This document shows positions 19,731-39,737 of a stretch of DNA of 64,000 nucleotides, piece by piece. The number at the start of each line of letters is the position of its first letter. The stretch's first letter is position 1. Where the stretch lies: positions 55,443 through 119,442 of the forward strand of contig PLDW01000518.1 of assembly GCA_003136315.1 (NCBI GenBank), given 5' to 3'. The notes beneath the pieces are model-generated. The model did not search any database. It worked only from the letters and a program-made list of their open reading frames with translations, and was not told where the DNA came from. This DNA comes from Gemmataceae bacterium (GTDB taxonomy: Bacteria; Planctomycetota; Planctomycetia; Gemmatales; Gemmataceae). The translations under genes were made by a program, and so were the position numbers.

Positions 19731-20027
19731 GTGACAAGAGAACACGTCGAATTAGACGCCAAGATGGCCACCTTTGCCGGGACATTCCCTACTCTACGGG
19801 AATCTCCGGGAACAGTTCGGTGGGATGCCAACACCCTCGATTATTGGGCAGCCGACACCCCCCTCTCGCCAGGGGAATTGTGGACAGCGCGGTTTGTGCT
19901 GGCGGTGTGGGATGCGAGCCACCCGTGGCAGTGTGGCCGTTTCGATGTGATGGAAGCGTTACGGGTCTGGGATCTGAAGCACAGGGCCGCGTTCCTCGCC
20001 TGGGTGAATGACCCGTGGTGGCCGTGA
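19731..20027 (+). CDS. hypothetical protein upstream of recombinase
   Basis: About 98 residues from a GTG preceded by AAGAGG; the frame is open further upstream but that part is not protein-like. Trp-rich (LDYWAADTPLSPGELWTARF, then NDPWWP). It overlaps the recombinase gene start by 13 bases, so the two are probably co-translated. It may be an accessory factor of the integrase, but no family is recognised. Confidence 0.5.
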   Translation: MTREHVELDAKMATFAGTFPTLRESPGTVRWDANTLDYWAADTPLSPGELWTARFVLAVWDASHPWQCGRFDVMEALRVWDLKHRAAFLAWVNDPWWP

Positions 20028-21003
20028 CGACAACAAGCGACGCGAGAGCCGACGAAGTGATGCGGCTCGATAGAGGGACTGTTCTCCCTTCGACCCTCCT
20101 TCAGGCTGGACCCCGCGCTTCGGAGAAGTTCGTCGAATTCTTTACAGCAGCAATACGGAACCCGAATACTCGTAGTGCCTACCACCGGGCCTCGGTGAAG
20201 TTCTTCGATTGGTGTGGTGCGGTTGGCCTGTCCCTGGAGCAGATCCTGCCTGTTCACGTCGCCACGTACATCGAGGCCCTCGGCCGGGAGATGTCGGCCC
20301 CAACGGTCAAGCAGAATCTCGCCGCCATCCGAATGCTCTTCGACTACCTCGTGGTCGGTCAGGTCGTCGAGATGAACGCAGCGGCCGCTGTCCGTGGGCC
20401 GAGCTACTCAGCGAAGAAGGGAAGACTCTGGTCCTCGACGAGGACGAGGCACGGACACTGCTGAAGAGCATCGACCACACGAGCGTGGTCGGCCTTCGTG
20501 ACAGGGCTGTCATCGGGTTGATGGTCTACACCTTTGCCCGAGTTGGAGCGCTGGTCGCGTTAAACGTTGAGGACTACTACCCGCAAGGCAAGAGGTGGTG
20601 GGTGCGGTTGCATGAGAAGGGCGGAAAACTTCACGAGGTGCCGTGTCACCACAAGCTTGAAGAGTGGCTGGATGCCTACCTCGATGCGGCTGGGCACAGA
20701 GATACAAGAAAGGCACCCCTCTTCAAAACAGTGATCGGAAGGACCAGGAAGTTGAGTGAGGGGCGGATGACCCGCGGGGACGTTTACAAGATGGCCAAAC
20801 GACGGGCAGTTGGGGCTGGGATCGAGACCGCGATCGGCTGTCACACGTTTCGGGCGACCGGGATTACCAACTACCTGTCCAACGGGGGGACGCTGGAAAA
20901 GGCCCAGGCTATCGCCAATCACGAGTCCACACGGACCACGAAACTCTACGACCGCCGAGAAGACAAGCTATCACTCGACGAAGTAGAGAGGATTACGATC
21001 TGA
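20015..21003 (+). pseudogene. tyrosine recombinase/integrase, frameshifted
   Basis: The N-terminal SAM-like core-binding domain (NTRSAYHRASVKFFDWC) lies in the first frame to about 20420. The catalytic domain then continues in another frame: R in FARVGALVALN, HTFRATGITNYL (HxxR), H in ANHEST and the nucleophile Y in KLYDRRED. One base appears missing in the A/G-rich stretch near 20422. Repairing it gives one XerC/D-like protein of about 330 residues. It borders the defence cluster and may once have moved it; as it stands it is probably inactive. Confidence 0.85.
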
Positions 21004-21014
21004 TAAAAATCTAT

Positions 21015-21677
21015 TCACTCGTCAGTGGCGATTGCGTTGAATTCACCACGAAACCACGACCGCCCAAGCAGCTTTCTGAGTCGGTTCACCTGCCGGTTGT
21101 GACACCGTCCAAGGCGGCGGTGACTGCCACACGGGCATGGTTCTTTATTCGCGACACGTCGTCGAAGTGAAGTGAGATGAACGAACACGCGCGCGGCAGC
21201 CCGACTTGGTGCCCTGAACAGTGAGGCAAAGTATTGGAGTAAGCCGTCCCGGCCATGTTCGAGTTCGCCAAACGGCATCACACCGTGGGCCTCATGGTAG
21301 CTGTGGCCGAACAGATACGGGATGACGAGCCGATCGACGAAGCCGAGAAGTGTCGGCGCTGTCGCCAATTGGATCTGGATTTCCGTACGCGCCCCGAGGC
21401 AAAGCAGATCGCCTTCGAGTTTGTGAAAGGCGGGAGCGATTCGCCCGCCGGTTTCACGGACAGTCGGGATCCCCCGAGGAAACGTCGACTGGACCCGGAT
21501 TTCGATCGCGTAGCAATCCTCGACCGTACGCCCGTCGGGGCCTGTTGCCCGGAACGGAAGATCCCCGGCGAGAAGTAGATCGTCACCGGAATTCGGCATG
21601 ATCCGCAGCCCGGAGTGACGCAGCAGTAGGTCTTGCAACCGCCAGCGGGCAAAGCGGTCGGAGGCCGATTCAGCCAT
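21015..21677 (-). CDS. E2-like CBASS ancillary protein with SEC-C tail
   Basis: 220 residues. The first 160 match the E2-like fold of short type II CBASS: a probable catalytic Cys in KLEGDLLCLGART and a conserved GHSYHEAHG segment. The last 50 carry a SEC-C zinc motif (CPCG, then RCH). E2-like Cap2 proteins conjugate the CD-NTase C-terminus to a target to prime it. It overlaps the CD-NTase gene by 8 bases and is the last gene of the cluster. The E2 reading is from context and the Cys motif; no JAB protease gene is next to it. Confidence 0.7.
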   Translation of the reverse strand: MAESASDRFARWRLQDLLLRHSGLRIMPNSGDDLLLAGDLPFRATGPDGRTVEDCYAIEIRVQSTFPRGIPTVRETGGRIAPAFHKLEGDLLCLGARTEIQIQLATAPTLLGFVDRLVIPYLFGHSYHEAHGVMPFGELEHGRDGLLQYFASLFRAPSRAAARVFVHLTSLRRRVANKEPCPCGSHRRLGRCHNRQVNRLRKLLGRSWFRGEFNAIATDE

Positions 21678-22833
21678 GTTGTCCCCAGGGCCTTGGGCCC
21701 GAAGGAATGATCAGTGGCGGTGCGGCCTTCAGGATCGTCGGGGCCGTGGTCACCGATCCTGATCCAAACTCCCGAAGTTCAGTCTGTGTCAGGTCAACAC
21801 GGAGGATAGCCCGCACTTCCCGACCAAGGGTCGGACTGCGGAGGAGCCCTGGGAGTTTTGCAACATCGGCCTTCACAGCCGCGTACCAGGCCCAGAAATT
21901 CGTTTCGAGCCGGGCGTCTCGCGACCACTTGTCGGCGTAGTCCTCGCCCGGAGCTGCCGGGTTCGGAACGCGGGGACGTTCGCTCCGTACGAACGATGCC
22001 ATTCGCTCGACGATATTCACCAGAGCCGCGTAGATGTCGGGCTCGCCGTCATAGGCCCGTGCAGCAAGATTGGTAATGATCATCGAAATCGGTTGCAGGT
22101 CGGTATTATTTCGAAACATGACGTCGCGATGCCGTTTCAAAAACTGAATGCTCCGCTGGAGCGTTGTCTTCCACTCGTACGGGGGCACGTCTTCGATCGA
22201 GGCTTTTAGACGGCCTTCGAGCAGACTCCGAGATCGGCCCAAGGCTGCGCGTGACTCGAACCAATGGGCGAACCCGCGTGGGTTGCTGCTCGTCCATCGC
22301 TGCGAGAGGACTCGATAATCCGGATGTTTGCGGTCGGTGATCGCAATCGCGCGGCCGGCGAGGTCCTGGGGCACCCCAAATTCGGCCAGATGTCGGATGA
22401 CCACCGCGTCCTCCGGGACACAGGGCAGCGTGTCGAGATGGAAGTTGACATCGTCAGCGTACACAAGCCGCCAGCACCGATTGTGCTCTTCAACAGGGGC
22501 CAGCATGTTGTAGGCTTTGGCGTAGGCTCGAATCTCTTCGCCATACAGCCGCTTCAGCTCCACCTGTGTGAGTGTCCCTTTCGTCAACCCCCGCAGCAGG
22601 CAAACATCGTCGAGATCGTACTCGTCATTCTCGTTTAGAGGCCGGTTCACAGTCCCGTACCGGAACGAGCCTTGCGGCCGCACGTCAGGGTTGAAGGCTC
22701 GCACGAGGGAATTCGGGCGATGTAGCCACTCGCCGAGCGAGCGGTGCCTGGCTGCCGCCTTCTCGTAGAGCGATTTTGGCACGTCGAAGTGTTCGATGAT
22801 GGCCGTCAAGAGACGGCTCAGCTCAGGGTTCAT
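21670..22833 (-). CDS. CD-NTase (CBASS cyclic oligonucleotide synthase)
   Basis: 387 residues. The nucleotidyltransferase core shows QGSFRYGTVNRP (the GS motif), then EYDLDDVCLL with the paired metal-binding Asp, and a further Asp in NFHLDTLPC. Helical C-terminal domain follows. These enzymes sense infection and make a cyclic di- or trinucleotide that activates the effector. The ATG at 22833 is 2 bases after the effector stop, so translation is coupled. The C-terminus ends in Gly (GPRPWGQHG), consistent with a residue that an E2-like enzyme could conjugate. The product cannot be predicted by eye. Confidence 0.9.
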   Translation of the reverse strand: MNPELSRLLTAIIEHFDVPKSLYEKAAARHRSLGEWLHRPNSLVRAFNPDVRPQGSFRYGTVNRPLNENDEYDLDDVCLLRGLTKGTLTQVELKRLYGEEIRAYAKAYNMLAPVEEHNRCWRLVYADDVNFHLDTLPCVPEDAVVIRHLAEFGVPQDLAGRAIAITDRKHPDYRVLSQRWTSSNPRGFAHWFESRAALGRSRSLLEGRLKASIEDVPPYEWKTTLQRSIQFLKRHRDVMFRNNTDLQPISMIITNLAARAYDGEPDIYAALVNIVERMASFVRSERPRVPNPAAPGEDYADKWSRDARLETNFWAWYAAVKADVAKLPGLLRSPTLGREVRAILRVDLTQTELREFGSGSVTTAPTILKAAPPLIIPSGPRPWGQHG

Positions 22834-22835
22834 GA

Positions 22836-24023
22836 TCAATCTCCGTTCGGGATAGACAGGGCGTGAATGAAGCCACCGCGAGCGTTCACCTGGTCGTACA
22901 CATGCCACGGCGTATCGGCCTTCGGCATCCGAATGCGGCCGAGTTCGACGGCCATCGCAGCTGACACCGCCGGAAAGATGTGGATGGGGGTGATTTGACC
23001 GTGGACCGCCTTGATGCGGTCCAACTGCGTGCGGAGGACGGCCCGAAACCGACCGAGCTGCTCCCGGCTCTTGGTCATGTCGTTGTGCGGTTGATCAACG
23101 GTGACCTCCCAGACACTCACAGTTGGGCCGAGCACGGCTTCAATCCGGTCGGGGGTGACCGTCGCGCTGAGGGCCAGGACGAGAGCCGCCGGCCCGTCCG
23201 TGGTCGCCGGTTGTCGTACGATGAACTCCGGGGTCACGCGGGCTACCGGCCAGCTCCATGATGGTGGCTCGCGGTGGCGCTGGTACACGTCCGCCGGCGT
23301 GATGTCGCCGAGAAGCGTGCCGAGCAGAACGAGCAGCGGTTGCGGGGCGAGTGCGAACACGGACAAGTGCTCGATCTCGGCCGACGACAACCGCTCCCGC
23401 ACCCTGCGGCTAAAGTGCGACCGCAGGTGAGTGGCTTCCATTTGCCAGAACTCGTCGCTCCGGTCCTGTGTCGGGCAGTCCAGCGAACCGAGGCTGATGG
23501 GCGTCGCCGAGGCCGGATACCGTAACGGGAACATGGCGCTGGCCGCGTCCGTCATCAGCCGCGGGGAATTGTGTTCCCCGATGTTCGCGCCGTAAAGCAG
23601 GACGTGACTGCGAAGCTCGGCATTGATGCCCGTGACGATCTCGATGCGAAGTTCGTGTCGCGCCTTCATCTCCTGCAACACCTGAGCGGCGTACCGCCCG
23701 CCGTCCGGAGCGCGATCAATTGTTAAGTGGCAGATGGGGCAGACGAGGATCAGGTTGTCGACCGAGTTGATGTCGTCCGTAGCAACGCCCGCGTTCCCCC
23801 TCGGCCCGTCGCAGCTGAACGAATAAATGTGCGCCCGCTGGGCGACGTTCACCGGCTCCTTGGTTACGGGGGAACGCCACAGGGGCAAATTGCACCCAGC
23901 AAACTCGCACCGCCCGCCGGCGCGCCCCCAGAGCATCGCGGTCATGTGAGGCGAAATGTAACGGGTCACTTCGCGCGGCTCGTCGGAGCTGTTGACAGTA
24001 GGTGGTGTCGTTTTGGGGGCCAT
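22836..24023 (-). CDS. HNH-SAVED effector nuclease (Cap5-like)
   Basis: 395 residues from the ATG at 24023. The N-terminal HNH nuclease has the zinc-type motif CEFAGCNLPLW, HIYSFSCDGPRG and NLILVCPICHLTID. The C-terminal half (about 190-390) is a SAVED-type sensor (FALAPQPLLVLLG, ending VDQPHNDMTKSREQ and HIFPAVSAAMAVELGR). In CBASS this protein binds the cyclic nucleotide and degrades DNA. It directly precedes the CD-NTase gene. The upstream 250 bases hold a copy of the helicase 3' end, not a gene. Confidence 0.9.
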   Translation of the reverse strand: MAPKTTPPTVNSSDEPREVTRYISPHMTAMLWGRAGGRCEFAGCNLPLWRSPVTKEPVNVAQRAHIYSFSCDGPRGNAGVATDDINSVDNLILVCPICHLTIDRAPDGGRYAAQVLQEMKARHELRIEIVTGINAELRSHVLLYGANIGEHNSPRLMTDAASAMFPLRYPASATPISLGSLDCPTQDRSDEFWQMEATHLRSHFSRRVRERLSSAEIEHLSVFALAPQPLLVLLGTLLGDITPADVYQRHREPPSWSWPVARVTPEFIVRQPATTDGPAALVLALSATVTPDRIEAVLGPTVSVWEVTVDQPHNDMTKSREQLGRFRAVLRTQLDRIKAVHGQITPIHIFPAVSAAMAVELGRIRMPKADTPWHVYDQVNARGGFIHALSIPNGD

Positions 24024-24072
24024 TTTTGTCTTTGCCGGACGGGTGATGCAGGATACTTCAGTGAGCCGCAGG

Positions 24073-24205
24073 CGGTTTGCCGTGGGTCTGAAGAAGTAAT
24101 CGCTCGCCCGGGAAGCGACCGGTAACATCACCCGAGATTTTTTTTCAGCAGCCCGTCGGCCAGCGGGGACAGGTTCTGCTCGGTTTGAGTGGGACCCGGC
24201 CCGCG
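24073..24205. repeat. direct repeat, copy A of helicase 3' end
   Basis: This stretch repeats 26629-26790, including the identical core GGAAGCGACCGGTAACATC followed by ACCCGAGA and a T8 run, and the GGGGACAGGTTCTGCTC block. It lacks about 30 bases present in the other copy. Copy B is the real 3' end of the ImmA-UvrD gene plus its downstream spacer. Copy A lies upstream of the HNH-SAVED gene and encodes only a broken tail of that helicase. Together they bracket the ubiquitin-like module. Confidence 0.85.
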
Positions 24206-24242: not shown

Positions 24243-24698
24243 TCATCGCCGCCAAGCTGAGAGCCACAAACATAGCCGAGCCCACCAACTTAGTAATTTC
24301 TCATCGCGTACAGTCGAAATCGATGTCGGTTGTGGTGGGGTTGTCGTCGCCGCTGGAGTGTCGCCACTCGCCGAGGTGGTGATGTCCCGCTGACGCACCG
24401 CCGCGACTTGCGAGTTGTTCCAGTGCCCAGCCTCAAGGACTCGCCCGCGGTCAATCACGTAATGTGAACGGCACGGCAAAGTCCAACTTCCCACCGACGG
24501 CCACACGGAAACGGTCTCGCCGTCGTACGTCATCTTCCAACCGGTCGGCGAGAACGGGGTCACGACCTCCTCACCGCACCCACAGCAGCAACTGTGGGTG
24601 GCGGTGCCGAACTCCATCGACACGTAGAGAACTCCCGGCTCAAGACGGTCCGGAAAGTTACACACGAATCGGTGTTCGAGGCGGTGGCAGCGGATCAC
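24243..24698 (-). CDS. DUF6527-like protein of the ubiquitin-like module
   Basis: About 151 residues from a GTG at 24698 that overlaps the E1 stop (GTGA). The core resembles DUF6527: MEFGTATHSCCCGCGEEVV, then GETVSVWPSVGSW and LPCRSHYVI. Its Cys and His residues suggest a metal site. The C-terminal tail is Ser/Thr/Pro-rich and ends in a Trp-rich hydrophobic helix (WWARLCLWLSAW). DUF6527 proteins occur beside multi-ubiquitin and E1-like genes; their activity is unknown. Confidence 0.72.
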   Translation of the reverse strand: MIRCHRLEHRFVCNFPDRLEPGVLYVSMEFGTATHSCCCGCGEEVVTPFSPTGWKMTYDGETVSVWPSVGSWTLPCRSHYVIDRGRVLEAGHWNNSQVAAVRQRDITTSASGDTPAATTTPPQPTSISTVRDEKLLSWWARLCLWLSAWRR

Positions 24699-25870
24699 GC
24701 CCGGTCTCCGTTTTCGAGTTGGTTGCCGTCGGTCGTATAGGTGCAATGATGTTCCCGTTCGAGGTCGCGATAGAACCCCCGAATCTTCTTCCACTTGATG
24801 ACGGCCAGCACGGCGTTGAGTGCGTTTAGGTCGGCGACCTGGATGTTGGAGGAGTAAACGTCGTCCGCCCCGCCGCCGGCGAAGGAGATGCGGCCTTGGT
24901 GAACGTGGTCGCGCTTTTCGGGCGTGCTGGCCGTCACCCGGAGGATGCCGCCGAGCGAACCGTCGACCAGCTCCAACCCCATGCCCGAATCGATGAACGG
25001 GACCCCGAGCGCCTCAAGCTTCCCGACGATCACTCGCTTCGCGTCGCCCGCGCCCAGGCACAGAAAGGCAAAGGTGGTTCCGTCGAGCAGGGGCAGATTG
25101 TCCGCGGTGAGCCGGGTCTTGTGCGCAACGATCCCGCGGTGCATCTTCGAATAAATCCCCTTGAGATAATCGACTTTCGACGGTGCGTCTCGAAGCTCCT
25201 CGATCGACGGCGCACCGGGCGCGCGAAATGCGTTGTGCTGGAGGAACTCGTCCGCGTCGAAGAGGCGGATCTCCCGCACCGGTGCCTTCGCCACGAAGTC
25301 AAGCAGGTACGAGCCGGTCCCCCCTAGGCCGATGATGCTCACGATCTCACGGGTCAGCAGATCACTCAGCGCGCCGATCCCCACCCTGCCGGACGCGGTC
25401 TCGATGTAGTTAAAGACGCCGTCGTTTTCGTCTTCTGGTTCGCGGAACACTCGCGGCGTGGCATTGGGCTTCAACACCGCGGCCGGGCCGGAGAGGATGC
25501 CGGCGTATGTGGTCATCTTCTCGTGGTAGTCGAGATAATTCCGACCGGGCTTGGTCGAAAAGTGGTACTTCGCGGTCAAGCCGTGGCCGAGGTTGTGATC
25601 TCCCGCACCATCGCCGATGCCCGTGATTCGCTTGCCGTCGGCGTTGCACGGGAACTCCCCGTCGAACCACACCTGGTGCGTGTCGGGAGGCCGGGTCTGG
25701 TCTCTGGCCAAGGTGAGGCTTGAGATGAGCGTACCCGTCAGCACCTCTCGCTTCGCGTTGACGTAGGGCACCTCGCGCATCACCAGGAGCGAGCCCCGGA
25801 TCTGCACGAAGTAGCCCTCGTCACGAAGGCGCTTGAGATCGGCGTTACGACTGAGTAGTGCGTGTGACAT
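24695..25870 (-). CDS. ThiF/E1-like adenylyltransferase
   Basis: 391 residues from the ATG at 25870. The first 180 residues form an extra domain (LKRLRDEGYFVQIRG, then GDHNLGHGL). The rest is an E1/ThiF Rossmann domain: ISIIGLGGTGSYL-type motif (IVSIIGLGGTGSY), the adenylate-binding LFDADEFLQHNAFR, and DGTTFAFLCLGAGDAKR. It should adenylate the C-terminus of a ubiquitin-like protein, most likely its upstream neighbour. It overlaps the multi-ubiquitin gene by about 26 bases. A dedicated E2 is not next to it; the SEC-C E2-like protein 4 kb downstream could serve. Confidence 0.85.
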   Translation of the reverse strand: MSHALLSRNADLKRLRDEGYFVQIRGSLLVMREVPYVNAKREVLTGTLISSLTLARDQTRPPDTHQVWFDGEFPCNADGKRITGIGDGAGDHNLGHGLTAKYHFSTKPGRNYLDYHEKMTTYAGILSGPAAVLKPNATPRVFREPEDENDGVFNYIETASGRVGIGALSDLLTREIVSIIGLGGTGSYLLDFVAKAPVREIRLFDADEFLQHNAFRAPGAPSIEELRDAPSKVDYLKGIYSKMHRGIVAHKTRLTADNLPLLDGTTFAFLCLGAGDAKRVIVGKLEALGVPFIDSGMGLELVDGSLGGILRVTASTPEKRDHVHQGRISFAGGGADDVYSSNIQVADLNALNAVLAVIKWKKIRGFYRDLEREHHCTYTTDGNQLENGDRA

Positions 25871-26600
25871 TGAACACAGTTCCGTTCTTGACTTGGACTC
25901 TCCCGCCGGCCCCGAGCTCCCCCGACGGGGGCTTCGAAGCGGCGTGGCGGTATGAGATGGAAAAGACAACATCCGGGTTGTGCGCCCCGGGGAACGCCAA
26001 CTGCACGATCTGCTCGAACGTCACGTCCGGCCCAGTGACAGTCTTCGGTCGCGCGTTTACGATGATTTCGAAGGTCGGCCGAGGGGCCGTGAAGAATCGT
26101 TCGACGCCCGGCTTCGTCAGGTCGATCAGTTCGCAAGGTTCTACGAGGCGGTCTTCGCCCCCGCGCACCTCCAGGTACACGACCTGGTCGTCAGAGGGGT
26201 TCGCCAAAGTGCGGAGGGCCCTGCCGCTGATCGTTGGCTTGCCCCACCGCAACTCGTGGTCGTTTAAGGTGAGGTGGAAGTCGCGGTCGGAGCGGAACGT
26301 CACGAATCGCTCGGCCCCCTTCGCACGGAGGTCGAACGTCTCATCCAGGCGGATGTCTTCGAAGTCTCCGCTGGGAAGGATTGCGAAGAGACTAAATTCG
26401 TCGATCGGCGCAAGACCGGCAGCCGTCAGAATCTGGCGCCCCAAGGGAACCGGGACGGAGATGGTGACCGGGCGAAAGTTGAGGCTTTCGTCGCTCACGG
26501 CAATCCGGTACGACGCGGCGACGCGGACGGCGCGGCCCTCTCGCACCGCGGCGCCAATGTCTTCGGTGTCTCCGGGAGTTGTCGTTATGTTGTCGTTCAC
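25845..26600 (-). CDS. multi-ubiquitin-like protein
   Basis: 251 residues starting at GTG with GAAAGGAC upstream. Three successive beta-grasp-like segments are visible: about 28-105, 106-175 (DFHLTLNDHELRWGKPTISG) and 176-251 (PTFEIIVNARPKTVTGPDVT). This matches the multi-ubiquitin proteins found with bacterial E1-like enzymes. The C-terminus is VTRTTQS, not a di-glycine. Repeated domains, E1-like gene directly after, and shared overlap support a conjugation system. It is the first gene of the module bracketed by helicase repeats. Confidence 0.8.
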   Translation of the reverse strand: MNDNITTTPGDTEDIGAAVREGRAVRVAASYRIAVSDESLNFRPVTISVPVPLGRQILTAAGLAPIDEFSLFAILPSGDFEDIRLDETFDLRAKGAERFVTFRSDRDFHLTLNDHELRWGKPTISGRALRTLANPSDDQVVYLEVRGGEDRLVEPCELIDLTKPGVERFFTAPRPTFEIIVNARPKTVTGPDVTFEQIVQLAFPGAHNPDVVFSISYRHAASKPPSGELGAGGRVQVKNGTVFNVTRTTQS

Positions 26601-26628: not shown

Positions 26629-26790
26629 CATTTCGCGTGGGTCTGAAGGACTAATCGCTCGACCGGGAAGCGACCGGTAACATCACCCGAGATTTTTTTT
26701 CAGCGGTCCGTCGGGCAGCGCGCCGCAGATGAAAAACGCAGGGCAGCGGGGACAGGTTCTGCTCAGCTTGAGCGGGAAACGGCCGGCCTG
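26629..26790. repeat. direct repeat, copy B (resident helicase 3' end)
   Basis: It covers the stop region of the helicase gene and the spacer before the multi-ubiquitin gene. It matches 24073-24205 at most positions outside one ~30 base gap. The shared part includes the helicase stop and the spacer, so duplication involved a DNA segment and not a selected protein motif. Confidence 0.85.
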
Positions 26791-29700
26791 CACCGCGTTC
26801 CCCATTTGGTCAATCGACGCGCGCCGGTTTGCAAGGACGCGAGCCGTCATCGCGACCGGTGTTATCACCGCGTCGCTCAGGTGAACCAGTTCGACCGCGC
26901 AGTCCGAGGAGTGGGTATGCGCCGCGATGACGAACGCCGCAGTCGCAAGGCTCTCGTCGTCCTTAGAGCCCTTGTGCCCGGTGTCGACCCGGCGCATCGT
27001 GATCTTCCCGCCGACACTTAGCACCTGGTCGGGCCGGATCACGATCTCGCCACCCGGGACCGGTAGGCGGAGGCACGGCACCTGGCGGACTTCTGCACCG
27101 ATCACGGTTCCCGCGTAGAAGTTCAGCAGTTGCATGGCGATTCGCTTGTACTCGTCTCCGTAGCCGTGGTCCACCAGACCGTGCTCAGCCCACACGGCGT
27201 CTAACGAAGCCTCCAGCTCCACGAGCGAAGGTTCTTTACCTCCTATCCCGTCAACGACCTTCTGAACCGCGACGTGCAACTGCATGAACCCGGTCTCCGT
27301 CCGACGGCCGCCCACGTCAAGGATGTGCGTGTACAGAAAGCGGCGCGGGCACCGCTCGTACAGGGCCAGTTGGTGATCGGTGAAAGCGAACGGCCCATCC
27401 ATCGTCAGCGGAACCGGCGAATCTTCTGGGCTCGGAGGTAGCACCTTCGTCGGCGTTACGTGGCGCATATCGATTCGGCTGCTCAAACGATCGATGAACG
27501 GCGACCGTGGGTGACTCGCGCTGTTCGACTTTTTCGTCTGAGAGTACATGACGAGTCGGTCGCGGGCTCTTGAGAGGGCGACGAAGAACAAGCACTCTTG
27601 TTCCTCGCTCAAGGCTTCTTTCACAGCATCGATTGCCTTGCCGGCAGCCCCGTCGATCAGTCCGTCGGGAGGAACAATCATGCCCGCAACTAAGGCGTTC
27701 GGCGAGCGTGGCAGACTCGCGTTGGTCAGGCCGGGGATGTGGACGGCCCGGAATTCGAGCCCCTTGCTCCCGTGCATCGTCATGAGCCGAACGGCATCAA
27801 TTCCTTGCGCGGCCGCGGGGAGCTGACGCAGGTCGCGTTCGTCGGAAAAAAGAACCAGACGACGAATTCTGGTGAGCAGGCGGGACAGCGGGAGCCCCTG
27901 TCCGTCGGATTGGCTTCGAACGAAATTCATGAACTGCCAGATCGCAATGCCGCGCGACCGCGCCCGAAGATCCTCGGCCGGGGCGATCTCGGCAGCGGCC
28001 CGCGTGCGGTCGAGTAGCACCGCGCAAAGGATGTCCCACGGATTCGCGTCCGACGTGAATCCGGCAAGTAGCTCGGCGATGCCCCGAAGCCCATCGAGCC
28101 CCGCCGGAGAAAGTGCCGTGAGGGTGCCGAGGGCCTCCACCCACTTCATCGGCTCGCAGTCGTCCTTTTTGAGATGCGAGAGCACAAGAGCGACATCGGC
28201 AAGCGGGACGGCGTGGGACTTCTGCGCCGCGACGCGCAGTAGCCCCATCGCCCTGCGATCAACGAGGATCGACAGCAGCGAGAGGAGATCCTTGATCTCG
28301 TCTCGCTCAAACAAGCTCCCGAGATAGAGAACCGGAACGCCGAGGCTCTCCAGCCCTTCGGTCAACCGCCCGAGCCGCTCGTTGCCAGCGCTCAAGATCG
28401 CTTGGTCGCGGTACGAGTATCCCTCCTTCTGCAGTTCCTCGATCGCTTCCGCGACCGCCGCGATTTCTTGGTCGCCAGTCTCGACCGACCGGTACTCGGG
28501 CCGCCGCCCGGCCGCGCCGCGGGCCGCCCGCAAGCCGATCTCGGTGCCGCGGACGCTCGGGATCTCCGCAGCAAAAGCGAGGTACGTGTCGACCACCTCC
28601 TCGACGCTTCGGTAATTCGTCGTCAGCCGCCCGCGCTTCGCCCCCGAGAAATCCTCACGGTCGAAGCGAACCATGTTGAACGCGGACGCCCCCCGGAACC
28701 GGTAGATGGATTGCTTGACGTCACCGACCGCCCAAAGATTGCGACCGTCCCCGGCGATGGCCTTCAGCAATCGCACACTGCTTCGGTTGACGTCCTGATA
28801 CTCGTCGACAAGGATGTGCTCGTAGCGCGCGGCCAGGTGCTCGCGGACGTCCTCTTGCTCTTCACACAGGCGGACCGGCAACGCCACGAGGTCGCCGAAG
28901 TCGATGTACCCTTTAGCCGCCTTCATTTTCTCGTAGGCCGCGAAAACGGTCGCCACTTCGAGGCTGCGCCCAGCGGCCTCGCGCGCTTCGGGAGTAGTGG
29001 CAGACGCGAGCATCGACTCCGCCAGGGTGCGGTATCCGACAGAGTCGATAACTTCGTCTCGGGCGCGCGAGATCGCGTCGAGGATGCTCTTGATCGAACC
29101 CGACGGATCCCGCAAGTCTTTGAAGTGTTCAAGGCCGAGTTTCGGGTACTCGTCCTCCAGGAACCCGATCGCGTCGGTCCGCTCAAGGAGCTTCGGGTTG
29201 CGTGGCAAGTCCAAGCGATCGTGGAAACGGCGGATGATATCGAGCCCGAAGCCGTGGAACGTGCCAATCCAGATGCTCGCCGCTGCCGCTCGGTGTTTGG
29301 CCCCGATTCTCTCCGAAAGCTCGCCGGCGGCCTTGTTGGAGAAGGTCAGAATGAGGATTTTCCCAGGCTCCACCCCCTTCGAGAGCAGGTAATCGACTCT
29401 GCCGACCAGCGTCTGCGTTTTCCCCGTCCCCGGCCCGGCCTCGAGCAGGTAAGCAAATCCCTCGTGCGTTGCCGCCGCTTCCTGGTCCGGCTTCAGCGGC
29501 TTGTTCTCAATTTCTTTGGGCGGGGGAATCTCGAACCGGGGAAGGAGGAGCGCGTCGAGGAGTTGCTGCGCGACAACCGCGTGTGGCGCTCCGAGCTTTG
29601 ACGCGATGGTGTCTGCTGAAACTCCGTCCTCAAGGTGGAGCGTTCGTACCCACGGCCTTGGTACCAAGAACTCTCGTGCAAACAGGTCCATCTGGACCTC

Positions 29701-30084
29701 GCGCCGTTGCCGCTGACTGTAGTCGACGACACGATCAACGCCGACGGGGACGGCCTCGGATGCCCTGAGCGGATCGCCATCCGACATCGCGTCCGCCTCG
29801 TCTTGACCGTCAAATTCAACGTGTCCGATCTCGTGAGCTACCAGAAACGCGCTGGCAAACTCGTCTCCCGTGTCCTCGTGGAGGATCAGGAGTGCGTCGG
29901 GATCGTAAACCGCTCGACCGCCGAAGAGGCGCACATCCCCCACCGAAACCCTCTCGACCGCAATCTCCCGTCTGGTCGCTTCCGCGCAGGCAAAGGCGTA
30001 CGGTTTCCACGGATCGTGGCCCGCCGCGACGGCGTTGACATGGAACCGCTCGGCGCACTGTCGGCTGATTTCAATAGAGTCCAT
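26683..30084 (-). CDS. ImmA/IrrE peptidase-UvrD helicase-nuclease fusion
   Basis: 1133 residues. Domain 1 (about 1-180) is an ImmA/IrrE-type zinc peptidase with HEIGH at 84-88 and the typical LFAREFLVPRPWVR helix. Domain 2 (about 200-870) is a superfamily 1 helicase: Walker A AGPGTGKT (216-223), TFSNKAAGEL, WIGTFHGFG, VDEYQDVN, GDVKQSIYRFRGA, TTNYRSVEEV, MTMHGSKGLEF and VALSRARDRL. Domain 3 (about 900-1133) looks like an AddB-type PD-(D/E)XK nuclease (YERCPRRFLYT) ending in a Cys cluster (CPRCPAFFIC), perhaps an iron-sulphur site. It overlaps the XRE-like gene by 14 bases. Confidence 0.9.
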   Translation of the reverse strand: MDSIEISRQCAERFHVNAVAAGHDPWKPYAFACAEATRREIAVERVSVGDVRLFGGRAVYDPDALLILHEDTGDEFASAFLVAHEIGHVEFDGQDEADAMSDGDPLRASEAVPVGVDRVVDYSQRQRREVQMDLFAREFLVPRPWVRTLHLEDGVSADTIASKLGAPHAVVAQQLLDALLLPRFEIPPPKEIENKPLKPDQEAAATHEGFAYLLEAGPGTGKTQTLVGRVDYLLSKGVEPGKILILTFSNKAAGELSERIGAKHRAAAASIWIGTFHGFGLDIIRRFHDRLDLPRNPKLLERTDAIGFLEDEYPKLGLEHFKDLRDPSGSIKSILDAISRARDEVIDSVGYRTLAESMLASATTPEAREAAGRSLEVATVFAAYEKMKAAKGYIDFGDLVALPVRLCEEQEDVREHLAARYEHILVDEYQDVNRSSVRLLKAIAGDGRNLWAVGDVKQSIYRFRGASAFNMVRFDREDFSGAKRGRLTTNYRSVEEVVDTYLAFAAEIPSVRGTEIGLRAARGAAGRRPEYRSVETGDQEIAAVAEAIEELQKEGYSYRDQAILSAGNERLGRLTEGLESLGVPVLYLGSLFERDEIKDLLSLLSILVDRRAMGLLRVAAQKSHAVPLADVALVLSHLKKDDCEPMKWVEALGTLTALSPAGLDGLRGIAELLAGFTSDANPWDILCAVLLDRTRAAAEIAPAEDLRARSRGIAIWQFMNFVRSQSDGQGLPLSRLLTRIRRLVLFSDERDLRQLPAAAQGIDAVRLMTMHGSKGLEFRAVHIPGLTNASLPRSPNALVAGMIVPPDGLIDGAAGKAIDAVKEALSEEQECLFFVALSRARDRLVMYSQTKKSNSASHPRSPFIDRLSSRIDMRHVTPTKVLPPSPEDSPVPLTMDGPFAFTDHQLALYERCPRRFLYTHILDVGGRRTETGFMQLHVAVQKVVDGIGGKEPSLVELEASLDAVWAEHGLVDHGYGDEYKRIAMQLLNFYAGTVIGAEVRQVPCLRLPVPGGEIVIRPDQVLSVGGKITMRRVDTGHKGSKDDESLATAAFVIAAHTHSSDCAVELVHLSDAVITPVAMTARVLANRRASIDQMGNAVQAGRFPLKLSRTCPRCPAFFICGALPDGPLKKNLG

Positions 30085-30673
30085 CGGCGTCGCAGTCCCG
30101 GAGGAGGAGTTGCCGTTGCTCGTCGGTCATTTCCGTGGCCAGAACAAGCTCTCGAAACGTCTTCTGACCCTGGTGCGATGGCTTCACGTCCGATTTGAAC
30201 GCGAGCGCCGCCAGTCCAGGTTGCGCCTGCACGAAATAGTCGCGAGCTGACTCGACGGACAAGCTGGTCGCATCGGCGAATCGCCTCGTGAAAGGCTCTG
30301 GAATGGACGTGGCCGTCACCAGGCCGTCCCGGAATGCCGTGAGAAACGAGCGCGGGACGTTCAGTGCTGCCGCCAGTTGCACGAAGGCTGCGCCCTTGCA
30401 ACGCACGAACGGATTCACGACCTCGTTGCTGGGCACCGCTTGTCGCTTGCAGCCGAGGAATTCTTGCCACGCCGCTTCGAGGCCCGGGTCCGCCACCGTA
30501 CCGCCGGCCGGTTTCCCCGGAGCATTCGCAAGACGGAGTTCTGACGACAGGTCGATTAGCTCCTCAGTGAGTTCCGGATACTGCCGAAGGTAGCGATCAA
30601 GCGTACTCCAGTCGTGAGTTGCCTCGACTGCGAACGCGTCAAGAATTGCCTCCGGATCGTGGGGGTTGCTCAT
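30071..30673 (-). CDS. XRE-like regulator preceding ImmA fusion
   Basis: 200 residues. A helical N-terminus (LDRYLRQYPELTEELIDLS) is followed near 95-135 by an XRE-type helix-turn-helix (FVQLAAALNVPRSFLTAF). XRE repressors are the classic substrates of ImmA/IrrE peptidases, and here the peptidase is fused to the next gene. The start overlaps the sigma factor stop as ATGA and its end overlaps the helicase by 14 bases. That makes a sigma factor/repressor/peptidase regulatory head. DNA binding is inference. Confidence 0.7.
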   Translation of the reverse strand: MSNPHDPEAILDAFAVEATHDWSTLDRYLRQYPELTEELIDLSSELRLANAPGKPAGGTVADPGLEAAWQEFLGCKRQAVPSNEVVNPFVRCKGAAFVQLAAALNVPRSFLTAFRDGLVTATSIPEPFTRRFADATSLSVESARDYFVQAQPGLAALAFKSDVKPSHQGQKTFRELVLATEMTDEQRQLLLRDCDADGLY

Positions 30674-31506
30674 ACGTCGTCCTCCTCTTTCAGGGCGTCC
30701 CGCAGTGTTTTAAACGCCCGATCACGCCTATTGCGCACTGTTTGCTCGACGCAACCAACGAGCTTGGCAATTGTAGTAACCCCTTCCTCCTGGGAGTCGA
30801 TCGGCACCTCTTGGAAGATCAGCTCGATGACCCGCCGCTGGTCGGGCGGCAGGGAATTAATCGCCGTGTGGAGTTTGGACCGGTAAAGGAAATCCACGCC
30901 TTCGTCATTCAGAGCGTTTCTCATCGCCGCCAGGGCCGATTCTATCTCCTCCGAGGCCTCCCCTGCATTGTCCGTGAAGTCCGTCGATTCGTAACGGGAC
31001 TCGTCCCGCCAGACCCGCTTTCGCGCAGTCGACCGAAGACGGGCGAGCGCGAAGTTAAAACGGCACTCGAAGCAATCGAGCCTGTCGTCGTATTCTCCGC
31101 CACGGTCTCCACAGAGCATCTCTTGGAACTTCTGGATGACGACTTCCTGGATTTCCTGTTCCCCCGACTTCTCGACAAGTTTCGCCGTGCCGGCCAGACG
31201 CCGAGCGGTCACAGGCACAGCCCGAAGTACTCGCTGGCGTAAAATCACGAACAGATCGTGAAGAGCGTCGTCGACCAAGCCAGGTCGACGGAAAAAGTAC
31301 AAAACACACTCAGACAGAACATAGTTCGGAGCGTCGACGTCCTCAATGCGGGAGCGTTCGATGAGTTCGTGTGTCGACAGCTCTAAAAGGGCTGTGAGCG
31401 CCGTTTCGACCTCGTTGGGGCGACAATACAGACCACCGTCAGGTAACCGCTTGCGGAGCGGTGCGACCGGCGGTTGTGTTCGTTCTCGGGCGACGTTCTG
31501 AGTCAT
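30670..31506 (-). CDS. sigma-70 family factor (ECF-like)
   Basis: About 278 residues from the ATG at 31506 (GGAGG lies 13 bases upstream; a GTG at 31530 is possible). Region 4 is clear near the C-terminus: INSLPPDQRRVIELIFQE, then TTIAKLVGCVEQTVRNRRDRA, the helix-turn-helix that reads the -35 box. Region 2 is weaker, in the helical ALHDLFVILRQRV to EVVIQKFQEML part. It is the first gene of the cluster, so it may drive the operon or answer to the following XRE/ImmA pair. Confidence 0.82.
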   Translation of the reverse strand: MTQNVARERTQPPVAPLRKRLPDGGLYCRPNEVETALTALLELSTHELIERSRIEDVDAPNYVLSECVLYFFRRPGLVDDALHDLFVILRQRVLRAVPVTARRLAGTAKLVEKSGEQEIQEVVIQKFQEMLCGDRGGEYDDRLDCFECRFNFALARLRSTARKRVWRDESRYESTDFTDNAGEASEEIESALAAMRNALNDEGVDFLYRSKLHTAINSLPPDQRRVIELIFQEVPIDSQEEGVTTIAKLVGCVEQTVRNRRDRAFKTLRDALKEEDDV

Positions 31507-35396: not shown

Positions 35397-36263
35397 ATGA
35401 TACGCTCAAGGTGTCCCCCCGTGCCCCCCTCAACGTATCTCGTCTTCGGCGACTTACACGGCCGCGTCCTGCCAGCGTTCAGGCTCGCGCAGGCGTGGTC
35501 GCGTGAGCACAATGTCGCCCTCGCCGGCCTGTTGCAGGTCGGCGATCTCGGCGAGTTTCCCGCGAGGCACCACTTTGATGAGGACAGGAGCCGCCACGCA
35601 CAGAAGGAATCACTTGAAGGCGGCATGCGGTTCGTGGCGCAGCCCAGTGAGGAAGCAGACGCGGTCTTCGCCGACGAATCCTGCCCCGAGGCACTGTGGT
35701 TCACTGCCGACAATCACGAAGATTACGACCTGTTGAAGGAGTTTGAGCGGGGGGGCGGCCGGGCGGCGAACAGCTTCGGAGTTGACGCTTACGACAAGCT
35801 GCGCTGCGTTCGAGACGGCCATGTCGCCGAACTGCCGGGTGGGCTCCGCGTCGGGGCGATCTGGGGTGTCGACCCGAGCACCCGCAGAAGGATCCCGCCA
35901 CGCGCCCGGATCAGCCATCGCAGCACGACTGTGCTGAGCAGCGCCAGCTTCGACGTGCTGCTCACGCACGATTCGCCGCGCGATGCCATCCTCGCTGACA
36001 GCGGCAGCGAGGAGATCGGGTCGGTCATCCGCAGCGCCCGGCCCGCGTTCGCCTTCTTCGGCCACTACCACAGTACCGGCCGCGAGGCTGACGGGGAGTT
36101 CGGTCCCACGCGAGCTTACCACCTCAGCCACCTGGAGCTTGACTCACGCGCTGAGGAGGGGTCGGTCGGCGTGATGAGTTGGGAGGGCGGGGCCGGCAGC
36201 TTTGCCTACCTCGACCCCGCCTGGCTGCGCACCGTCACGCGCCACAACTGGAAACATCGGTAA
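35397..36263 (+). CDS. metallophosphoesterase
   Basis: About 288 residues from the ATG at 35397; a GTG at 35421 just before STYLVFGDLHGR is also possible. Calcineurin-like motifs in order: FGDLHG, QVGDLGEF, TADNHED (GNHE position, with an altered first residue), LLTHDSPRD and FFGHYHSTG. It should hydrolyse phosphomonoesters or cyclic nucleotides with two metals. Near a CBASS locus a nucleotide-degrading role is conceivable, but that is speculation. Its 3' 280 bases recur at 39738-40017. Confidence 0.85.
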   Translation: MIRSRCPPVPPSTYLVFGDLHGRVLPAFRLAQAWSREHNVALAGLLQVGDLGEFPARHHFDEDRSRHAQKESLEGGMRFVAQPSEEADAVFADESCPEALWFTADNHEDYDLLKEFERGGGRAANSFGVDAYDKLRCVRDGHVAELPGGLRVGAIWGVDPSTRRRIPPRARISHRSTTVLSSASFDVLLTHDSPRDAILADSGSEEIGSVIRSARPAFAFFGHYHSTGREADGEFGPTRAYHLSHLELDSRAEEGSVGVMSWEGGAGSFAYLDPAWLRTVTRHNWKHR

Positions 36264-36625
36264 GCGACGAAACCACCGCGCCCCTCACGTACCACTGATC
36301 GTTCGCGAGCTGGACGAATGTCAGCGGATCGCGCATGACAAGGAACTTCACCAGGTAACCTCGGCTCCCCTTCCTGCATCGCTTCATCAAGTGGTGTGGA
36401 CACCCCCCAAGACTCACTCGACATCAACTCGACAACTCGACATGACTCGACATCGAGGCGGCCGATTTCCCTTGCCTCCCGGTTCTGGCACTGTTACCAG
36501 GGAAGATCCCCTCCGGGCCACCCGGGAGGCGGGAGTTCCTCCGCCACCGATAGTGGTACGCCTCGCCCAACGCGATCAATGCACTGCCGAGGCCGATGTC
36601 ACCAAGGCTGGACAGGCGGGAGATG
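36264..36625. other. spacer with short direct repeats
   Basis: About 360 bases without a gene. Near 36413-36455 an ACTCGACA motif recurs four to five times at irregular short spacing, which may be a regulatory or recombination site. Nothing else is recognised. Confidence 0.4.
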
Positions 36626-36675
36626 ATGGTACATAATACCTCCAGAATAATAAAAGTGGTGGTAAATCGTACCAT
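36626..36675. promoter_or_regulatory. inverted-repeat operator upstream of abiEi
   Basis: ATGGTAC at 36626-36632 is mirrored by GTACCAT at 36669-36675, which overlaps the start codon. A nested TACCTCC/GGTGGTA pair lies between them. AbiEi antitoxins repress their own promoter through inverted repeats, so this is a good operator candidate. Confidence 0.55.
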
Positions 36676-37297
36676 GCCGAACAGTGCCTCCAGTACCGAA
36701 GACGCCTACACCAGGGCTGAGCGCCTGTTCCGCGAGCGGGGCGGGATGCTCAGGATGGCCGAGGCCGTCGAGGCCGGTATCCACCGCCACACCCTGTACA
36801 CCCTCCGAGATCAGGGAGTCCTCGAACAACTCAGCCGCGGGCTCTACCGCCTGGCCGACGCCCCGACACTCGGTCACCCGGACCTCGTCGCCGTCGCCCG
36901 CCGGGCCCCGAAGGGCGTCATCTGCCTCGTCTCAGCGCTCGCCTTCCATGACCTCACAACCCAGGTTCCGCACGAGGTCTACCTGGCGGTGCCCCGGGGC
37001 TCCGAGCCGCCCCGGATCGACTACCCGCCTGTCCGCGTGTTCCGAGTCGGCGAGCGAGCGTTCACGGAAGGGATCGAGACGCATGATCTTGACGGCGTCC
37101 CCGTGCGGATCTACTCCCGGGAAAAGACGCTCGCCGATGGATTCAAGTATCGCTCGGCGATCGGGCTCGACACTGCAGTCGAAGCCGTCCGTCGGTATCG
37201 AGACCAAGGCCGCATCGATGTCGAGGCCCTCCTCCGGGCCGCCCGGGCGTGCCACGTGGAGAACGTCATGCGGCCTTACCTGGAAGCCGTCCTGTGA
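36674..37297 (+). CDS. AbiEi-type antitoxin/regulator (locus 1)
   Basis: 207 residues. The winged-helix N-terminus shows AGIHRHTLYTLRDQGVLEQL and SRGLYRLAD. The AbiEi C-terminal part follows (CLVSALAFHDLTTQVPHEVY, REKTLADGFKYR). It should repress the operon and neutralise the AbiEii nucleotidyltransferase. Its TGA overlaps the toxin GTG (GTGA). Confidence 0.9.
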   Translation: MPNSASSTEDAYTRAERLFRERGGMLRMAEAVEAGIHRHTLYTLRDQGVLEQLSRGLYRLADAPTLGHPDLVAVARRAPKGVICLVSALAFHDLTTQVPHEVYLAVPRGSEPPRIDYPPVRVFRVGERAFTEGIETHDLDGVPVRIYSREKTLADGFKYRSAIGLDTAVEAVRRYRDQGRIDVEALLRAARACHVENVMRPYLEAVL

Positions 37298-38205
37298 CCA
37301 AGCCGGTAAAAGACATCGCGGCCTCCGTCCGCCACCGTCTCCAGAATGCGGCCAAGGCGTCAGGTCGCCCGTTTCAGGAGGTGCTGGAATACTTCGCTAT
37401 GGAGCGGTTCCTCTACCGCCTCGCCCAGTCCCCGCACGCCGGCCGGTTCGTGCTCAAGGGAGCGCTCCTGTTCCGGGCGTGGGGCGGCCCGGCCTCTCGG
37501 CCCACCCGAGACATCGACCTGCTCGCACGGATGGAGAACACGGTCGAAGCGGTTGTCCGCGTGTTCCGTGAGGTATGTGGGATCGGGGTGGAATCGGACG
37601 GCATGGTGTTCGACTCGGAGTCAGTGGTCGGGACTGTCATCAAGGAAGACGCCGAATACTCGGGAGTCCGAGTGACCTTCCTGGGGAGGCTCCAGAACGC
37701 ACGGGTGGCGATGCAGGCCGACATCGGGTTCGCGGACGTGGTGACGCCGGGGCCGGTGCCGATGGTCTACCCAGTCATCCTCGAACTCCCTGCCCCACAC
37801 CTCGACGGCTACACCCGGGAGACGGTGGTCGCCGAGAAGTTCGAGGCGATGATGAAACTCGGAGCGCTGAACAGCCGGATGAAGGACTTCTATGACCTAT
37901 GGGTTCTGGCCCGACGATTCGACTTCGATGGGGCGACGCTCGCTTTGGCCGTGGCCCGGACGTTCGCGAACCGGAAGACGGCCGTTCTCCCAGGCACGTT
38001 GGCCCTGACTCCGGGGTTCGCTCTGGTCGCTGGGAAGGAGGCCCAGTGGAAAGGGTTCCTCCGGAAGACGAAGATCACCGACGCGCCGGGGGAACTCGCG
38101 GCGGTGACCGCGAAACTCGGGGAGTTCCTTCGACCGGTTGCCACGGCGGTCGCTGCCGGGGCTGACTTTCGCCACGCCTGGCGAGCACCCGGTCCGTGGG
38201 GATGA
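37294..38205 (+). CDS. AbiEii-type nucleotidyltransferase toxin (locus 1)
   Basis: 303 residues from the GTG at 37294. The nucleotidyltransferase motifs of AbiEii are present: FVLKGALLFRAW, PTRDIDLLAR (DxD), a later acidic strand in ADIGFADVV, and ETVVAEKFEAMMKLG with the catalytic Lys region, then MKDFYDLWVLAR. Family members act as abortive-infection toxins, reported to transfer nucleotides to target molecules. The copy is intact. Confidence 0.92.
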   Translation: MTKPVKDIAASVRHRLQNAAKASGRPFQEVLEYFAMERFLYRLAQSPHAGRFVLKGALLFRAWGGPASRPTRDIDLLARMENTVEAVVRVFREVCGIGVESDGMVFDSESVVGTVIKEDAEYSGVRVTFLGRLQNARVAMQADIGFADVVTPGPVPMVYPVILELPAPHLDGYTRETVVAEKFEAMMKLGALNSRMKDFYDLWVLARRFDFDGATLALAVARTFANRKTAVLPGTLALTPGFALVAGKEAQWKGFLRKTKITDAPGELAAVTAKLGEFLRPVATAVAAGADFRHAWRAPGPWG

Positions 38206-38322: not shown

Positions 38323-39210
38323 TCATGCGGCGACCACGACGTCAGCGAACATCCCGGCATCCCTCCGAAGCCTCTCCTCGGCAATCGCAACGTACTCGGG
38401 GTTGAGTTCGATTCCGACGCAGTGCCGACCAAGACGGTCAGCGACCAGACCGGTCGTGCCCGCCCCGAAGAATGGGTCAAGCACCGTGCCCCCGGCCGGA
38501 CACCCAGCGAGAATGCATGGCTCGATCAGCTTGGGCGGGAAGGTTGCGAAGTGAGCTTGGCTGAATGGCTGGGTGGGCATCGTCCACACCGTCCGCTTGT
38601 TCCGACCCAAAAGAGTGTGGGTCCGATTGGTCGTGGGAAGTGAGACGATCGATCTCTGCACCCTCGGTTCGCGAATGGCGTTGCTATCGTAGAAATACCG
38701 CTCGAATTTACTGAGCAGGAACAGGTATTCGTGGGCCTTTGTCGGGCGATCGCAGACCGATTCTGGCATCGGATTGGTCTTGTGCCAGATGATGTCGCTG
38801 CGGAGGAACCACCCATCCTCTTGGAGGGCGAACGCGACCCGCCACGGAACCCCGATCAAGTCCTTGGTCTTCACCCCCGTCTGCTTCTTCGCATGAGCCG
38901 GCATGTGGTCGTTTCGAGACTGCTTCGGCCACCGCTTCTCGTCACGCGTGCCGCAGCCACCGTTGGCGTAACTATCCCCGAGGTTGAGCCAGAGCGTGCC
39001 GTCATCCCTGAGCACTCGCTTCACCTCGCGGAACACGGCGACCAGGTTCCTCACGAACTCGTCCGGCGTCGGCTCCAGACCGAGTTGTGCGGCATGCCCG
39101 TAATCACGGAGGCCCCAGTACGGCGGAGAGGTGACGCAGGTATGGACTGACTCGTCAGCGAGGGCCGCGAGGTGTGACTGGCAGCATCCTGTAAGAATTT
39201 GAATTGCCAT
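38323..39210 (-). CDS. DNA methyltransferase, beta class (N4-C or N6-A)
   Basis: About 295 residues from the ATG at 39210; an earlier start is possible but that part is not protein-like. Motif order is catalytic first (TSPPYWGLRDYG) and SAM-binding last (LDPFFGAGTTGLVADRLGRH), the beta arrangement shared by N4-cytosine and N6-adenine enzymes. SPPY occurs in both. No restriction nuclease gene is next to it, so it is an orphan enzyme or the remains of a restriction system. It converges on the AbiEii gene. Confidence 0.88.
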   Translation of the reverse strand: MAIQILTGCCQSHLAALADESVHTCVTSPPYWGLRDYGHAAQLGLEPTPDEFVRNLVAVFREVKRVLRDDGTLWLNLGDSYANGGCGTRDEKRWPKQSRNDHMPAHAKKQTGVKTKDLIGVPWRVAFALQEDGWFLRSDIIWHKTNPMPESVCDRPTKAHEYLFLLSKFERYFYDSNAIREPRVQRSIVSLPTTNRTHTLLGRNKRTVWTMPTQPFSQAHFATFPPKLIEPCILAGCPAGGTVLDPFFGAGTTGLVADRLGRHCVGIELNPEYVAIAEERLRRDAGMFADVVVAA

Positions 39211-39737
39211 CAGAAGCTTTTGCGCTACTGTCGCAGGAGATGATCGCTCGCCTGACACGTTTCGGGTCTGGGGAACACCAGCAGTGTTGATCGCACGGAG
39301 GCGGCCCACCCGGTTACCCCACATCGGCTCTGATATTTCAAGCATTATGCCAGATGTTTGGTGTGAGTGCCAGGTGGTGTGTGTTTCGGTGTTTCGTTGC
39401 TCGCTGGCACTCTGGCGATGGTCATCGACCATGCATACTGCGCCGGCCTGATTGTTGTCATTCCTTGCAACACGCTCAGACTTGATTCAGCAACTCAACT
39501 CTCCCTCTGCAAGCAACGCCTCGTGATGAGCCGGAACACCTGCCCTGAATCCTCTAGCGTTCCGGAGGAAGTTTGCAGCGGTCGGAGCCTGGCGGACATC
39601 ACATTTTTCTTGATAATGGCTATTTTCTTGCGTCGGCCGAGTTCCGGGAATTCCTCCGCAACTTAGGCCGAGACGACTCAGAACCGGATCGCCCTCAGCG
39701 GCACGAGTTCCATCGAGACAATGCAATCATGACCCGC
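39211..39737. other. non-coding stretch
   Basis: About 530 bases upstream of the methyltransferase, probably holding its promoter. No other gene is supported. A T-rich segment near 39603-39620 is all that stands out. Confidence 0.35.

Follow-up and report, generated by a model that had tools for sequence, protein, structure and literature searches.

A peptidase-helicase fusion with sigma-like and XRE-like partners: a candidate control cassette for bacterial ubiquitin-like immune operons

How costly immune operons are switched on is an active question, and the ubiquitin-like operons and those of the cyclic oligonucleotide-based anti-phage signalling system (CBASS) have three known DNA-damage regulators, which are exchangeable. 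To our knowledge, the members of the M78 peptidase family whose function is known are repressor cutters (IrrE/DdrO and CapP/CapH). Upstream of Bub, Bil and other immune operons, CapW, CapH with CapP, and CapK with CapS occur as exchangeable DNA-damage regulators (PMC13373217). The CapH/CapP pair, whose signal is DNA damage, controls CBASS, Bub and other immune operons (PMC13373217). In the model for IrrE/PprI and DdrO of Deinococcus, single-stranded DNA activates cleavage of an XRE repressor (PMC10904395), and both PprI/IrrE and CapP are activated by single-stranded DNA (PMC10904395; PMC13373217). Here we describe a cassette of three genes in a 64,000-nucleotide stretch of contig PLDW01000518.1 from a Gemmataceae bacterium; this whole stretch is called the window below. 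The cassette consists of a sigma-like gene, an XRE-like gene and a gene for an M78 peptidase fused to a UvrD-type helicase, and it sits directly upstream of immune operons, with Multi-ubiquitin or Bil genes immediately behind and CBASS genes next.

The cassette resembles CapH and CapP in that an M78-type peptidase lies beside a helix-turn-helix protein, upstream of immune operons. However, the peptidase is stand-alone in that pair, whereas here it is fused to a helicase and a probably dead nuclease; the sigma-like gene is a constant addition here; and the helix-turn-helix protein carries a further domain at its N-terminus, while no sequence similarity between it and CapH is detectable. By analogy the cassette would work like CapH/CapP, yet it falls outside that pair as defined, on account of the fusion and of the additional sigma-like gene. 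IrrE/PprI shares the M78 site, HEXXH plus Glu, but is a free protein of 300 amino acids with a GAF-like end, in place of which the protein described here carries a helicase module of 950 amino acids. CapK with CapS and CapW are comparable in genomic position and in their exchangeability between immune operons (PMC13373217), but they are kinase/STAS or WYL proteins and their mechanism is unrelated. The helicase core and fold and the four-cysteine PD-(D/E)XK-type end recall AdnAB, AddAB, RecB and PcrA/UvrD; unlike these, the fusion has lost the catalytic D-x-K and gained an N-terminal peptidase. We lean slightly towards the reading that the cassette is a DNA-damage control switch for the ubiquitin-like operon and neighbouring immune operon, in which the helicase senses DNA and the XRE-like protein is cleaved. 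The features of the cassette are the following.

26683..30084, minus strand: fusion of M78 peptidase, UvrD helicase and probably inactivated PD-(D/E)XK domain, 1,133 amino acids, single open reading frame
29515..30084, minus strand: M78 (IrrE/ImmA-like) peptidase domain, residues 1-190; Pfam Peptidase_M78 at 63-175
29821..29835, minus strand: HEIGH with H84, E85 and H88, two metal ligands and the catalytic Glu; conserved in the alignment
29698..29700, minus strand: E129, predicted third metal ligand, in QRREVQMDLFARE; conserved in the alignment
27445..29496, minus strand: superfamily 1A (SF1A) UvrD-type helicase core, residues 197-880; Pfam E-value 3e-61, all motifs
26725..27372, minus strand: PD-(D/E)XK-like domain, residues 905-1120; Pfam PDDEXK_1, 33.4 bits against a cut-off of 22
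30071..30673, minus strand: XRE-like regulator, 200 amino acids, assigned from a structure model; proposed peptidase substrate
30670..31506, minus strand: sigma-like gene, first of the cassette, ATG at 31506; sigma-70 region 4 helix-turn-helix at the C-terminus

The preliminary description, made from the sequence of the window, had proposed a fusion of peptidase and helicase with HEIGH at residues 84-88 and a full set of SF1 helicase motifs, and all three claims hold. The frame runs from an ATG with 0 internal stops, its translation places HEIGH at that position, and the Pfam domains all score above the curated cut-offs: Peptidase_M78 (PF06114) reaches 41.9 bits, the cut-off being 22 bits as for PDDEXK_1, and UvrD-helicase (residues 197-476, 207.9 bits) and UvrD_C (487-627) follow. 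The peptidase is fused to the helicase in all full-length homologues. A sequencing or assembly artefact, a chance arrangement or a lone curiosity is ruled out because the three-gene order recurs at 80 homologous loci of other genomes. The metal site is complete. A predicted third metal ligand, named beforehand as a point to check, was found in E129, which lies within RREVQMDLFAREFLVPR: all aligned full-length fusions (74/74; the set contains the window and several near-identical copies from Bradyrhizobium) share H84, E85, H88 and E129, and 12/12 further loci, including the quite distant L139, keep them intact. When the profile of the peptidase domain was compared with PDB, the sole matches were IrrE (3dte, 8slm) and CapP (7t5t), weak at E-values of 0.23-0.75. 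In the AlphaFold model the domain ends in three helices, and we infer that these occupy the place of the helix-turn-helix in IrrE-type peptidases.

Helicase motifs I-VI are present, intact and near-invariant across the family, with Walker A and B invariant. By sequence, the closest solved relatives of the core are PcrA/UvrD (PcrA, PDB 1pjr, E-value 1.3e-55), and the fusion model (pLDDT 88.3, pTM 0.87) matches UvrD/PcrA, AdnB and AddA in fold (AdnB with a TM score of 0.70 on the target). The end of the protein had been described as a cysteine-clustered nuclease, of which the cysteines stand and the activity probably does not. C912, C1111, C1114 and C1120 are kept in 73-74 of 74 aligned fusions, a putative cluster with the residue pattern of the AddB/AdnB-type iron-sulphur nucleases. 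D1019 is mostly conserved, but the D-x-K position holds R1031 in 74/74, within the family pattern R-(R/K)-x-x-T-G-H (L139 has Q at the R1031 position), and because of this replacement the nuclease is probably inactive. An active nuclease was rejected on the alignment columns, D-x-K being lost in the whole alignment and at the added loci.

The gene before the fusion keeps a fixed place and encodes a candidate XRE-like regulator: XRE proteins are among the best, sub-significant matches of its structure model, whereas sequence searches of Pfam, PADLOC and PDB gave 0 matches. The model has a mean pLDDT of 84.8, and its top Foldseek matches in PDB include NGO0477 (3kxa), SinR (3qq6), ClgR, C.AhdI and lambda repressor, at sub-significant E-values of 0.7-5. 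A lambda-repressor-type helix-turn-helix is predicted at about residues 95-150, an assignment of the same sub-significant standing. The helical domain in front of it (residues 1-75) is conserved, with the pattern VLDAFAVE...TLERYL..YPE.A.ELIDLSREL. In an alignment of 53 sequences the linker, of low model confidence yet conserved, keeps K160, K164 and P165, and C-terminal helices follow. As a lead only, a segment similar to the N-terminal domain is found ahead of the kinase domain of a protein from a planctomycete (L107, E-value 7e-4).

The sigma factor said to lead the operon is likewise borne out in position, standing upstream in 80/80 loci, and in identity as far as region 4. Pfam Sigma70_r4_2 matches the window protein with an E-value of 1.1e-6, sigma-70 region 4 is matched in 27/34 members of the family, and the family profile finds FliA region 4 in PDB (E-value 0.003). 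The NCBIfam model sigma70-ECF spans residues 127-280 with a score below its cut-off. The N-terminal half is conserved within the family though not recognised as region 2. Because the sigma-like and XRE-like genes overlap by 4 bases and the XRE-like gene and the fusion by 14, the three genes are translationally packed.

The linkage of these genes is near-obligate. When 84,980 species genomes were scanned with the N-terminal 260 residues of the fusion, 148 relatives were found and 80 loci were kept; sigma-like gene, XRE-like gene and fusion stand in the same order in all 80. The XRE-like profile was also searched alone, which removes the bias of a search based on the fusion. In 392 Planctomycetota genomes it is rare, the sole convincing match being the genome of the window itself. 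Its matches among 398 Bradyrhizobium-order and 369 Pseudomonas-class genomes included 10 new loci that could be read, each with the sigma-like gene before and the fusion after (10/10); two other matches, a fragment at a contig end and a spurious one (L141), were excluded. Among seven plasmid loci picked for divergence, six have the fusion beside the XRE-like gene, and in L148 the fusion is broken by a frameshift. Since the constant partners of the fusion are the sigma-like and XRE-like genes while the downstream module varies, the peptidase site is kept whatever module follows, and the biochemistry of IrrE/PprI and CapP is known, cleavage of the XRE-like protein would be the likeliest step. 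Linkage of the sigma-like gene is as strict as that of the XRE-like gene, and the sequence data are compatible with either target; the peptidase might instead cleave the sigma-like protein, or control both regulators by binding without cleavage. The known M78 substrates are XRE-type helix-turn-helix proteins and the full catalytic conservation points to catalysis, and we give this explanation the least credence of those considered.

The cassette forms a family that is widespread on both chromosomes and plasmids and is not unique to the window: members occur in Planctomycetota, Alpha-, Beta- and Gammaproteobacteria, Myxococcota, Verrucomicrobiota, Acidobacteriota and Cyanobacteria. In L055 and L058-L064 (Bradyrhizobium, Sphingomonas, Xanthobacter and others), the cassette and a caspase-helicase region are 99.3-99.98% identical over 16-21 kb, which reflects either a very recent exchange across orders or a contaminant common to these genomes. 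A phage-borne origin of the fusion was rejected, as no homologue was found in IMG/VR and phage records; nor was a copy found in E. coli at megablast level with the RIT714 operon as query. The frameshifted cassette of L148 (766-9582), on a Rhizobium plasmid, lies beside a mutagenesis cassette of the ImuA-ImuB-DnaE2 type.

The position of the cassette is fixed as well. A ubiquitin-like gene comes next in every locus of the genome scan that has a complete fusion and a continuing contig; no module was recognised after the fusion in L137. In the window the following genes lie downstream.

25845..26600, minus strand: Multi-ubiquitin protein with three ubiquitin-like repeats; Pfam Multi_ubiq E-value 1.4e-60, 3 stretches
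24695..25870, minus strand: E1-like ThiF protein with DUF6791 (E-value 2.3e-56; ThiF 4e-6); NCBIfam PRK06153; family start codon at 25870
24243..24794, minus strand: DUF6527 cysteine-rich protein, third gene of the ubiquitin-like module; Pfam E-value 1.7e-22
22836..24131, minus strand: HNH-SAVED effector of CBASS; Pfam SAVED E-value 3.6e-48, PADLOC Effector/Endonuclease 1.8e-139
21670..22908, minus strand: CD-NTase (DncV-like) of CBASS; PADLOC Cyclase E-value 2e-111
21015..21677, minus strand: CBASS E2 with a C-terminal SEC-C-like motif; PADLOC E2 E-value 1.4e-55, SEC-C weak

At least four kinds of ubiquitin-like module are seen behind the cassette: (a) that of the window, with triple-ubiquitin protein, E1 with DUF6791 and DUF6527, and neither E2 nor JAB; (b) a Multi_ubiq-E2 fusion, a JAB-E1 fusion and DUF6527 (L029, L038, L080, L136); (c) a ubiquitin-like-E2-like protein, JAB and E1 (L028); and (d) genuine BilABCD, with PADLOC E-values for BilA, BilB and BilD of 1e-44 to 1e-171 (L103, L138, L145). 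CBASS genes beyond the module occur only in the window, L023, L026, L079 and L100; elsewhere a caspase-DEAD helicase fusion (12 loci, near-identical copies included), a RelA/SpoT protein (L131), SbcC/SbcD-like genes, or a PDDEXK protein and UvrD, take that place. The proposal that the cassette is a control unit for downstream defence genes fits this arrangement, as many genomes have Bil, Multi-ubiquitin and CBASS genes behind it. A role mainly as a dedicated CBASS regulator was rejected, given the few loci with CBASS against a ubiquitin-like gene almost everywhere. The most direct client would be the ubiquitin-like operon right behind, and CBASS is an exchangeable neighbour.

The peptidase might instead belong to the ubiquitin-like machinery itself, maturing the Multi-ubiquitin precursor or stripping conjugates from DNA-bound targets to which the helicase brings it, as a bacterial analogue of the proteases that act on DNA-protein crosslinks. 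The operon of the window type has no JAB or other peptidase, and its Multi-ubiquitin protein has the conserved tail ...GGxVxVKKKGTVFNVTRTxQS (TRTxQS invariant) in place of a terminal Gly-Gly, so that it would have to be trimmed before classical conjugation. In mirror-tree comparisons, the highest partial correlation of the M78 domain outside its own protein is with Multi-ubiquitin (0.31, against 0.10 for the XRE-like protein), a modest difference with overlapping bootstrap ranges; the operon genes are all correlated in evolutionary distance (0.80-0.96), and co-evolution as a means to identify the partner of the peptidase was set aside because the partial correlations do not decide. However, the M78 residues are kept before every module type: the site is equally conserved where JAB is present (L028, L029, L085, L136, L139) and with BilABCD, whose modifier is unrelated in sequence, and the constant partners are the sigma-like and XRE-like genes rather than one ubiquitin-like protein. 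We also know of no M78 enzyme that acts in ubiquitin-like processing, and consider a role in this machinery unlikely.

If the cassette is a damage switch, it could operate as follows. At rest, the XRE-like protein would hold the operon off, as a DNA-bound repressor or by binding the sigma-like protein. Phage attack or damage would produce DNA ends or single strands, on which the UvrD/AdnB-like motor may load, the dead four-cysteine nuclease fold serving DNA binding and structure. Engagement of the motor would activate the attached M78 peptidase, which would cut the XRE-like protein and thereby release operon transcription. The most plausible site of the cut is the flexible, conserved linker around K160-P165. 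In a bolder and rather doubtful version, a RecB/AdnB-like translocase with a retired nuclease drives a zinc peptidase whose target is an anti-sigma-like XRE protein; once this is destroyed, the dedicated sigma factor switches on the ubiquitin-like antiviral operons. What we infer in these schemes is that cleavage takes place, with its target and its site, that DNA triggers it, that the sigma-like protein acts as a sigma factor, and that there is an operator or sigma-dependent promoter.

Several points weigh against a damage switch of this kind. The structural matches behind the XRE-like identity are sub-significant; region 2 was not recognised by Pfam in any of the 34 sigma-like proteins; counts of dyads and 7-mers upstream of the sigma-like genes, taken as a search for a promoter or operator motif, did not exceed those in shuffled sequences; the mirror-tree values given above are, within their overlapping ranges, higher for Multi-ubiquitin than for the XRE-like protein; and a large ATP-driven motor exceeds what sensing of single-stranded DNA needs. 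Finally, on a Cupriavidus plasmid (L144, 8219-13934) the sigma-like and XRE-like genes stand directly before BilABCD with no fusion nearby, a gene of opposite orientation occupying its place; the pair can thus exist without the peptidase.

This last locus also bears on the idea that the fusion is a direct effector, whose helicase moves along invading DNA while the peptidase destroys bound proteins such as phage repressors or terminal proteins, the sigma-like and XRE-like genes regulating only its expression. The complete motor with its AdnB/AddA-like fold and the defence-island neighbours found throughout would suit such an effector. But the pair in L144 precedes BilABCD without the fusion and so is not solely a regulator of it, and M78 proteases are typically highly specific; we regard a direct effector as improbable.

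The proposed clients, the conjugation operons of the Multi-ubiquitin/Bub-like, Bil and type II CBASS kinds, follow the cassette, which is not among their described components in the sources covered. PADLOC 2.0.0 has no model for the sigma-like or XRE-like protein and matches the fusion with generic UvrD helicase models only. In the literature searched, neither DUF6527/DUF6791 nor such a fusion is mentioned, Iyer 2006 (PMC1779556) mentions no helicase or sigma factor, and in one of the sources covered UvrD comes up only with E. coli repair genes and sigma factors only in anti-sigma analogies; Gong 2025, Ye 2026 (on Bub operons) and later surveys of the Aravind group lie outside this coverage, and prior notice of the gene order there is possible. 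If the switch reading is true, the cassette would bring the kinds of DNA-damage regulator at Bub, Bil and CBASS operons to four; in the bolder version it would also be the first of them to have a helicase sensor and a sigma factor of its own. It joins a DNA motor and a protease in a single chain, and its position directly before the experimentally established Bil system makes it testable with existing assays.

Other genes around the cassette vary. AbiEi/AbiEii pairs often lie upstream of the sigma-like gene (21 loci). A fusion of caspase (Peptidase_C14) and DEAD-box helicase adjoins either DUF6527, on its downstream side, or the sigma-like gene, on its upstream side, in about a dozen loci (e.g., L059, 16340-19444). 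In L131 (9527-12544) a protein of 1,005 amino acids with a RelA/SpoT domain, possibly a toxic effector of the (p)ppGpp type, lies directly behind the ubiquitin-like module, and in L146 (5028-15531) the cassette is flanked by two divergent Multi-ubiquitin operons, of which one includes SbcD-like and YhaN genes. Within the window, a tyrosine recombinase extends over two overlapping plus-strand frames (20015-21003) beside the CBASS end and is likely a frameshifted integrase. A direct repeat of about 285 bp (35979-36263 and 39735-40018, 89.5% identity), a partial duplication of a phosphoesterase-like open reading frame, flanks AbiEi/AbiEii-like genes (36596-38205) and a DNA methyltransferase (38323-39432).

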